This document shows positions 25,046-27,545 of a stretch of DNA of 64,000 nucleotides, one piece after another. The DNA comes from Haloarchaeobius iranensis (GTDB lineage Archaea > Halobacteriota > Halobacteria > Halobacteriales > Natrialbaceae): NCBI RefSeq assembly GCF_900103505.1, contig NZ_FNIA01000008.1, positions 1 to 64,000 of the forward strand. Direction: 5' to 3'. Under the pieces are notes generated by a model, which saw only the letters and a program-made list of their open reading frames with translations, was not told the origin of the DNA and made no database searches. The first letter of the stretch is position 1. Each line of letters opens with the position of its first letter. The position numbers were made by a program, and so were the translations under genes.

Positions 25046-25711
25046 ATGGACCTCCTGCCAGACGAGACCGCACGGTTCGTCCGCGCGACAGCCCCCGAGG
25101 GGGACGACCTCGCCGCCGAGATGGACGCCTACGCCGAAGAAGAGGACTTCCCACACGTCGGGCCCGAGGTCGGAGGGCTGCTACGGAGCTTCGCGCGGAT
25201 GGTCGACGCCGAGCGCGTCTTCGAGTTCGGCTCCGGCTTCGGCTACTCCGCCTACTGGTGGGGACAGGCTCTCCCGGCCGACGGCGACCTCGTCCTCACC
25301 GAGTTCGACAGGGACGAACTGGAGATGGCCCGCGAGTTCATGACCAGCGCCGGCCTCGACGCCATCGCGTACTACGAGCACGGCGACGCCCTCGACGCCA
25401 TCGAGCGGTACGACGGCCCGTTCGACTGCGTGCTCGTCGACCACCAGAAACACCGCTACGCCGAGGCGTTCGACGCCGTCCGCGAGAAGGTCGCCCCCGG
25501 CGGTATCGTCGTCGCGGACAACGCGATGACCGCCGGCATCATCGAGTTCGAGAAGCTGCTCGCCATCGTCGAGGGCGACGACCCCGGCGAGGTGAACGAA
25601 CACACGCAGGGCATCGCTGACTACCTGGCGACCGTGCGCTCGGACCCCGAGTTCGAGACGAACGTGCTGCCGGTGGGGGAAGGAATCGCGGTCAGCTACC
25701 GACTGGGCTGA
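25046..25711 (+). CDS. O-methyltransferase (SAM-dependent, COMT-like)
   Basis: A 221-residue class I methyltransferase. Motif I is VFEFGSGFGYSAYW (about 57-70), the acidic ribose-binding residue is in LVLTEFDRDEL, post-motif DCVLVDHQKHRYAEAF holds the Asp/His/Lys metal and catalytic residues typical of cation-dependent O-methyltransferases, and GGIVVADNAM is the second metal motif. It most likely methylates a catechol-like or other hydroxylated small molecule; substrate unknown. ATG 25046 is preferred over GTG three codons upstream. A broken copy of its 3' end lies at 27405-27525, beyond the next gene. Confidence 0.9.
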   Translation: MDLLPDETARFVRATAPEGDDLAAEMDAYAEEEDFPHVGPEVGGLLRSFARMVDAERVFEFGSGFGYSAYWWGQALPADGDLVLTEFDRDELEMAREFMTSAGLDAIAYYEHGDALDAIERYDGPFDCVLVDHQKHRYAEAFDAVREKVAPGGIVVADNAMTAGIIEFEKLLAIVEGDDPGEVNEHTQGIADYLATVRSDPEFETNVLPVGEGIAVSYRLG

Positions 25712-25712
25712 G

Positions 25713-27338
25713 TCACTCCTCGTCGTCGTCGCTCGCCTCGTGTGCGTCCGCGGCGGGCGCGTTCCGCTTGACGCCCTCGATGGCGTCGTAGACCGCGGTC
25801 CGCTCGCTGTAGCCCTGGCCGCAGTCGGCGATGATGTTCCCGTTCCGGTGGCGGAGCCGCCAGCGCCACTTCCCTCCCCTGTCCTCGTACACCTCGAATG
25901 CCGCTCGACCGACGTCCAGCGCGTCGGCGTCGGGCGCGTACCGCCCGATGCGCTCGACGGCCTCCTCGACGCCGGACTCTGACGCGTAGCCCTCGCCGGA
26001 GTCGGCGACGAGTTCGTCGTTGCCGGCCCGGAGCCGCCAGCGCCAGTCGCCGCCCCTGTCCTCGAACGTCTCGAAGGCGAGGCTGCCGTCCGCGACACCG
26101 GACCGGACGGTGTCGACCGCACGCTTGGCGTCTCGCCGACGCGTGTACCCCTCACCGGAGTCGCCGAGGATGTTCCCGTTCTTGTGGACGAGCCGCCAGC
26201 GCCACTCTCGGGCGTTGTCGCGGAACACCTCGAACGACACCGGGTCGAACCGCAGGTAGTCGGCCGGCCCGACGTTGCCCCGGACGCTCTTCAGTGCGCG
26301 GGTCACGCCGCTTCGGTTCGAGTAGCCCTCGCCCGAGTCGGCGATGACGTTGCCGTTGTCGTGTCTGAGCCGCCAGCGCCAGTCGCCGCCCCTGTCCTCG
26401 AACAGCTCGAAGGTCGCCTGCGACTCGGTCTCGGTCACCGCCGGGAGCAACGGCACGTCGTCGAGTGCGTCCTCGCCGGTCTCCGCGGGCTCCTCGGCCG
26501 CGGCCGCCGGCGGCTGGACGACGGTCGCCCCGAGCGCGTTTCGACGGACGCTCTGGAGCCCATTCTGGGCGTTGTGCTTCCGGGTGTACCCCTCACCGCT
26601 GGAGGCGATGACGTTTCCGTTCCGGTGTCGCAGCCGCCAGCGGTACTCGCCGGCCCTGTCCGGGTACAGCTCGAACTGCGCGCTGCTCGTCCGGAGCGAG
26701 TCGAGCTCCGCGGACAGCGCCTCGACCTCGGCCTCCAGCTCGGTCTGGGCCGCCGCTGCATCTGTCCCGGCCTGCTCGCTGGCTGCCGTGTCCCGCTCGA
26801 CCTGCTGTGCCAGCTCGTCCCGGTCCTCGCGGAGCGACTCCAGCTCCGATTCGAGTTCGGAGACGCGCTGGCCCGACGCGGCCGCAGCAGCCCCCGTTCG
26901 TGTCTCGGTCGGGCTCAACAGCGGCACGAACACGCCACCGATACCGATGATGGCGAGCCCCGCCGCGTACAGCAGCGCCACGGGTCGGTTTCCGGTCGTC
27001 GTGCTCCAGTCGACCGGGAAGACGACGGTGAACCAGACGATCGCGGCCGCACACATCACCAGCCCGAGGTACGTCGTGTACGTCGCGGTCCGCTGGAGCG
27101 GGAGCCTGATGACCGGCCCCGCGACCAGCAGCGCGATGCCCGCCGACGCGAGGACGATGCTCGCCTCACGCATCGTCGTCGCGCTCTCGCTCGACATGAA
27201 CAGTGCGATGCCGACGACGCCCACCACGACCCCCACCGCGAACACCCAGTAGCCGTACGCCTCGTCCCCGGTGTCGGCAGTACCGATTCGGTCCTCGTAC
27301 GCGGAGCGGAGCGCCCCGGATTCGTCGTCTGTTGCCAT
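25713..27338 (-). CDS. Membrane protein with coiled coil and five HVO_2922/YegP (DUF1508) repeats
   Basis: A 541-residue protein with four TM helices (about 31-48, 60-79, 88-106, 119-140), a Glu/Arg/Ala-rich coiled coil (about 157-217) and five copies of the DUF1508 (YegP/HVO_2922) module: 220-267, 308-355, 367-414, 420-467 and 479-526. Each repeat has F/E-x-Y/F-x-D-R, a W-RWRLR strand, NGN-I and SGEGY-x9-A-x3-V. The fourth keeps only the frame of the NGN motif (GNDELVADSGEGY). Single or double modules are usual, so five on a membrane anchor is unusual. A TTTTAT box 26 bases above the ATG (27361-27367) supports start 27338. Function is unknown. Confidence 0.88.
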   Translation of the reverse strand: MATDDESGALRSAYEDRIGTADTGDEAYGYWVFAVGVVVGVVGIALFMSSESATTMREASIVLASAGIALLVAGPVIRLPLQRTATYTTYLGLVMCAAAIVWFTVVFPVDWSTTTGNRPVALLYAAGLAIIGIGGVFVPLLSPTETRTGAAAAASGQRVSELESELESLREDRDELAQQVERDTAASEQAGTDAAAAQTELEAEVEALSAELDSLRTSSAQFELYPDRAGEYRWRLRHRNGNVIASSGEGYTRKHNAQNGLQSVRRNALGATVVQPPAAAAEEPAETGEDALDDVPLLPAVTETESQATFELFEDRGGDWRWRLRHDNGNVIADSGEGYSNRSGVTRALKSVRGNVGPADYLRFDPVSFEVFRDNAREWRWRLVHKNGNILGDSGEGYTRRRDAKRAVDTVRSGVADGSLAFETFEDRGGDWRWRLRAGNDELVADSGEGYASESGVEEAVERIGRYAPDADALDVGRAAFEVYEDRGGKWRWRLRHRNGNIIADCGQGYSERTAVYDAIEGVKRNAPAADAHEASDDDEE

Positions 27339-27404
27339 GTGCCATATCTCTGGTGCGCAACATAAAAGTCCTCGTGCGAACTGGAAGACAGGTCGGGGCC
27401 GGCG

Positions 27405-27525
27405 ACACGGGCTATCAGAGTGAACACATGTAGCGCATCTCGGACAATCCGGCGACCGTGCGCTCGGACCGCCAGTTCGAGGCGGACGTGCTGCCGTCCG
27501 GTGGTCGAATCGTGGTCGGCCACCG
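27405..27525 (+). pseudogene. Decayed copy of the O-methyltransferase 3' end
   Basis: The + strand frame here reads as a degenerate version of the C-terminal 40 residues of the methyltransferase at 25046: EHM-stop-RISDNPATVRSDRQFEAD and VLPSGGRIVVGHR against EHTQGIADYLATVRSDPEFE and VLPVGEGIAVSYR. An in-frame TAG replaces a Gln codon, and 20 consecutive bases (27451-27470) match the gene exactly. No promoter or 5' part remains. It lies on the other side of the YegP-repeat gene, which suggests that a second methyltransferase copy, or a duplicated block, once existed here. Confidence 0.7.
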
Positions 27526-27545
27526 GCGAGGCCCGCTGATGCCAC

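Follow-up and report, generated by a model that had tools for sequence, protein, structure and literature searches.

A single open reading frame on the minus strand (25713..27338, stop included) of the window, i.e. the 64,000-nucleotide stretch of a Haloarchaeobius iranensis contig that was analysed, encodes a membrane protein of 541 amino acids. Pfam placed a DUF7139 membrane domain (PF23600; 85.3 bits, cut-off 30) at residues 10–133 (26940..27311, minus strand), followed by five DUF1508 matches (E = 3.1e-80, 264 bits, cut-off 22), and NCBIfam returned five copies of HVO_2922 (NF041908; 358 bits, cut-off 90). In a whole-genome search, each of the modules M1 to M5 exceeded the Pfam DUF1508 (PF07411) cut-off alone (E = 8.5e-20, 2.7e-13, 2.6e-12, 1.0e-14 and 7.3e-18, respectively), in agreement with the first-pass annotation, which had recognised five YegP/HVO_2922 modules. 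At 541 amino acids, with five modules and a membrane domain, the protein departs from the build of the NF041908 equivalog, a single module of ~60 amino acids. No signalling domain was found in it by Pfam or NCBIfam.

An AT-rich, TATA-like hexamer (TTTTAT; 27362..27367, minus strand) lies ~25–30 nt before the ATG; such a hexamer was present 18–38 nt upstream in only 13 of 44 loci with an ATG at the start of the match, and it is thus weak evidence of a promoter. Also upstream of the gene, at 27392–27532, there is a copy (74% alike) of the last 141 bp of an O-methyltransferase gene (window 25568–25708). This copy was absent from three other loci of the genus in a nucleotide search (L123, L072 and L017), and is possibly the trace of a rearrangement.

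The genome from which the window comes (3.77 Mb in 73 contigs) contains seven DUF1508 matches, five of them in the window gene and the other two in a single frame of 177 codons on a different contig. DUF7139 occurs three times, in the window gene, in a 331-codon frame with a DUF7140 end and in a 329-codon frame. The DUF7139–DUF7140 protein shares the membrane anchor of the window protein (174 bits) but ends in the Cys-rich DUF7140 rather than in YegP modules. A further arrangement was seen in genome G307, where DUF7139 lies near the C-terminus of a 524-amino acid protein (L118:4206-5777; two matches of equal score on one contig), the N-terminal 320 residues of which had no Pfam match at E 0.01.

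The AlphaFold model of the full-length protein (63 sequences, pLDDT 85.2, pTM 0.43) comprised four membrane helices, a helix of 72 residues and five beta-beta-beta-alpha modules, bearing out the four transmembrane helices noted previously. All of these features are read from the minus strand. Predicted transmembrane helices 1 to 4 span residues 24–49 (27192..27269), 55–78 (27105..27176), 83–106 (27021..27092) and 118–141 (26916..26987), and the acidic 72-residue helix (145–216; 26691..26906) is likely a coiled-coil stalk, with weak Pfam coiled-coil matches over 155–220. It is followed by M1 (221–274; 26517..26678) and by an acidic, Pro-rich linker (275–307; 26418..26516) that appeared flexible, as judged by pLDDT values below 50 at residues 271–300 and by variable spacing in homologues. 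The remaining modules are M2 (308–360; 26259..26417), M3 (365–418; 26085..26246), M4 (419–471; 25926..26084) and M5 (477–534; 25737..25910). M1 of the model aligned with HVO_2922 of Haloferax volcanii (6Q2Z, 60 amino acids) over 60 of 60 residues (Z 8.7, rmsd 1.6, 50% identity), and is thus predicted to adopt the same beta-beta-beta-alpha fold. Matches of the membrane part to LTC4 synthase, the adiponectin receptor and VTC had low Z scores (5–7) and were set aside.

Across 63 homologues, Lys and Arg residues together averaged 2.60 in the loop between helices 2 and 3, 0.27 in each of the loops between helices 1 and 2 and between helices 3 and 4, and 3.25 in the stretch after helix 4. Read with the positive-inside rule, these loop charges place both the N- and the C-terminus inside, with the stalk and modules predicted to be cytoplasmic. 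The module count and the loop charges support the earlier suggestion that the protein is multivalent and intracellular. They contradict its other suggestion, a surface location: a receptor or adhesin facing outwards would fit the large soluble portion of this membrane protein, but the even number of helices, the positive loop between helices 2 and 3 and the nearly uncharged outer loops of the 63 homologues make this very improbable.

When used as a query, the five-module protein matched sequences in 377 of the 392 genomes of the order, and DUF7139 alone was present in 372. With best-E limits that we chose ourselves (1e-45 for the five-module and 1e-60 for a thirteen-module type) and lists copied by hand, the five-module gene was assigned to 118 of the 392 genomes. 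DUF7139 matched in 47 genomes of a phylum-wide sample of 148 and passed its cut-off in 43; 24 of the 47 were from the order of the window and 23 from others. The nearest relative among the matches listed was from Haloarchaeobius sp. FL176 (88% identity). Overall, the family is genuine, widespread among haloarchaea and uncharacterised, and the gene in the window is a typical representative of it.

Modules were counted at 80 loci, the best among 251 relatives in a scan of named genomes. At 72 of these loci, a single frame contained all five modules; at seven, the modules were divided between two frames (three plus two), the remaining locus (L189) being cut by a contig end. Module number thus looks fixed in this family. 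The division fell cleanly between M3 and M4 at six loci (L144, L151, L167, L191, L198 and L202), where the first frame ended after M3 and the second began with an ATG directly before M4 (with an overlapping stop and start, ATGA, at L191), while the two frames of L196 resulted from a frameshift inside M4. Since the clean divisions recur at the same junction with an ATG of their own, each half may function as a polypeptide in its own right. Deviating loci outside the 80 had four modules (L074), three plus one (L068) or a broken frame (L073). In the 72 homologues, the starts of M2 and M3 were always 59 residues apart, and those of M4 and M5 were 59 apart in 68 and 58 in four; spacing varied from 65 to 121 residues between M1 and M2 and from 48 to 85 between M3 and M4. 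For 329 of 365 modules, the nearest relative from another genus was the module at the same position, from which we conclude that module order and the separate identities of the modules are old.

Searches of the surroundings did not name a process. Clustering of 26 loci gave no conserved neighbour pointing to one beyond close relatives, the commonest neighbour family (5 of 26 loci) being an ABC-type ATPase by its look. No PADLOC defence match was meaningful (the best covered 28 residues at E 0.00048, and most others were of coiled-coil type), PHROGs included DUF1508-like phage families without known function, and the viral collection contained one weak locus.

The core motifs RWRLR, NGN and SGEGY had been described as complete in M2, M3 and M5. 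This was correct for M2 and M3 and extends to M1, which also has the full core, while M5 reads CGQGY rather than SGEGY. M4 had been called partly degenerate, a description that we abandon: M4 passes the cut-off and carries a position-specific variant kept across genera, with Arg233 (M1 numbering throughout) in 71 of 72 homologues, Glu or Gln249 in 67 and His238 in only 33. His238 was kept in M1, M2, M3 and M5 of 72, 72, 69 and 70 of the 72 homologues, respectively, and Asn240 in 68 to 72 in all five modules. Solved relatives offer an explanation for part of this conservation. The one-module HVO_2922 (6Q2Z) is presented as a symmetrical dimer in PMC7217052, and in the homodimer of Atu0232 (2K7I), Arg15 of one subunit forms a bond with Glu30 and Ser29 of its partner, an asymmetric hydrogen bond described in PMC7239866 for this one relative only. 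In our alignment, Arg15 falls on the first Arg of RWRLR (Arg233 of M1) and Glu30 on the glutamate of GEGY (Glu249 of M1). Across the 72 five-module homologues, 349 of 360 modules had Arg or Lys at 233 together with Glu or Gln at 249, from which we infer that the motif core is at least partly a surface for module pairing. His238 and Asn240 may serve something other than pairing.

As to which modules pair, Foldseek/VIA-align placed YegP of E. coli (2k8e; 113 residues, Z 15.0) within residues 365–502 of the model and SO3888 of Shewanella (2k49; 110 residues, Z 15.2) within 365–498, and these alignments must therefore cover the greater part of both M3 and M4. M3 and M4 thus resemble the two modules of the YegP/UPF0339 proteins, which, unlike the window protein, have no membrane part, and are likely a cis pair in the predicted structure. 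Their separation at the divided loci, where no covalent link joins them, counts against cis pairing. M1, isolated by the stalk and the flexible linker, is a candidate for pairing in trans, its partner probably being the M1 of a second copy; either cis or trans pairing may apply to M2 and M5. The pTM of only 0.43 makes the module arrangement of the full-length model uncertain, and the likeness of this model to YegP may be learned, since the YegP structures were possibly in the AlphaFold training set. The constant spacing of 59 residues had suggested M2–M3 and M4–M5 as pseudo-dimers. This idea is not supported, as the YegP alignment fell on M3–M4 and M4–M5 folded alone did not reproduce it: that model was poor (pLDDT 66.3), its match to YegP was confined to a single module (49 residues, Z 6.3), and it did not indicate pairing across the 59-residue junctions. 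The M4–M5 junction is also ~7 residues longer than that of YegP.

The statement that YegP-type proteins have one or two modules holds for the solved proteins, but haloarchaea commonly have five or thirteen. Homologues with five or more modules, which had been named as grounds for setting aside the idea of an unusual receptor if they had an assigned role, are plentiful, and the literature search returned none with such a role. DUF7139 proteins in frames of ~925–1070 codons contained exactly thirteen DUF1508-like modules in 33 of 33 cases sampled (L111–L117, L204–L223 and L228–L233), a sample hand-picked from strong matches, mostly with one open frame, in which split copies (e.g. that of G047) are under-represented. 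Like the five-module protein, this paralogue (e.g. L112) consists of DUF7139 followed by a DUF1508 array; unlike it, it has no long stalk and a near-constant module spacing of ~58 residues. Trp234 was nearly always kept in the thirteen-module proteins, while Arg or Lys233 together with Glu or Gln249 occurred in only 51 of 429 modules, 25 of which were module 7; in contrast to the five-module family, the pair is thus found mainly in one module. Beside another thirteen-module DUF7139 protein (L105) lies a gene of kinase look, presumably an archaeal pantoate kinase.

By the same self-chosen limits and hand-copied lists, the thirteen-module type, a separate many-module DUF7139 protein, was present in 103 of the 392 genomes of the order. 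Both types occurred together in 14 genomes compared to 31 expected if independent (Fisher p 1e-5, uncorrected for relatedness), and neither in 185. With relatedness uncorrected, these counts suggest that the five- and thirteen-module forms tend to replace each other. Within the genus of the window, four genomes had only the five-module type and two only the thirteen-module type.

We consider the protein most likely to be a cytoplasm-facing, membrane-anchored haloarchaeal scaffold, the modules of which pair in cis and probably in trans, and assign this reading a probability of about 40%. The four helices of DUF7139, with both ends inside, would fix the protein in the membrane, and the five YegP-type modules would project from it into the cytoplasm on the long acidic helix. 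Each of them, keeping the two side chains that join the subunits of a one-module homodimer, would act as a pairing unit; M3 and M4 would form an intrachain pair like that of YegP, and M1 would probably pair with M1 of another copy, giving a membrane-bound oligomer of fixed valency. Its cellular role would perhaps be linked to stress, as induction by stress has been reported for YegP and HVO_2922. A wider form of this proposal, which we hold with much less confidence, is a scaffold of pairing modules of counted size, either five, every one of them able to pair, or thirteen, as a rod in which only a central module pairs.

Other uses of the modules were weighed against this scaffold. The protein might tether an anionic polymer such as nucleic acid or polyphosphate to the membrane, with M1 and the RWRLR strands binding and the stalk acting as a spacer. 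M1 is basic, with a mean net charge of +4.2 in 24 genus representatives, compared to an average of −3.2 for 50-amino acid stretches of the window (61 of 623 at +4 or above), a background that takes in some wrong-frame open reading frames. M2, M3, M4 and M5 are neutral or acidic (−1.6, −0.1, −5.9 and +0.2, respectively), however, and the arginines are at least partly accounted for by pairing. CHAD binds polyphosphate, and anchors resembling DUF7139 are fused to it in two proteins that belong to different orders of the phylum than the window (L224:2101-4023 and L225:1214-3088), but the DUF7139 scores of these are below the cut-off (25 and 21.5 compared to 30 bits). Induction of YegP/HVO_2922 together with DNA-damage and stress genes, as indicated in PMC12175516 and PMC9501238, and the position of yegP beside DNA-damage-controlled capK and capS in 57 cases, as given in PMC13373217, would also suit such a tether, which we nevertheless consider doubtful.

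An intracellular receptor, each module of which would bind a small molecule or peptide at a site of its own, is about equally improbable. The strong conservation of His238 and Asn240, not all of which is explained by the dimer contact, speaks for it; no ligand was found in any relative, no signalling domain accompanies the modules, and the core supposed to bind overlaps the dimer contact of Atu0232, so that of the receptor proposed in the first-pass annotation we retain the multivalency and not the ligand. Less likely still is a docking platform on which soluble one- or two-module YegP/HVO_2922 proteins form hetero-pairs with the modules. The separate two-module protein in the genome of the window would be a candidate partner, and further DUF1508 matches occurred in 19 of 24 genomes with the five-module gene, but in the other five its modules were the only DUF1508 matches, and a soluble DUF1508 partner is therefore not required.

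In published work, YegP/HVO_2922 proteins are linked to perchlorate and DNA-repair genes (PMC12175516), are counted among multi-stress hubs (PMC9501238) and are linked to RpoS (PMC2907692); the passages concerned, and that of PMC13373217, do not give a mechanism. The literature searched contained no mention of DUF7139.

YegP/DUF1508 modules of E. coli, Neisseria, haloarchaea and phages have, to our knowledge, no known role, and we are aware of little work on cytoplasm-facing membrane scaffolds in archaea. New here are the regular anatomy of the family, its predicted cytoplasmic placement, the fixed numbers of five and thirteen and the proposed link from motif to pairing. If the wider proposal of a scaffold of counted size is true, these proteins would be cytoplasmic organisers of a kind that the literature searched does not describe for archaea, and the YegP fold would work in them as a pairing unit rather than as a receptor. 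If the motif is a pairing surface, this 50-residue module would gain a testable use, for which the fixed five and thirteen would provide a natural series.
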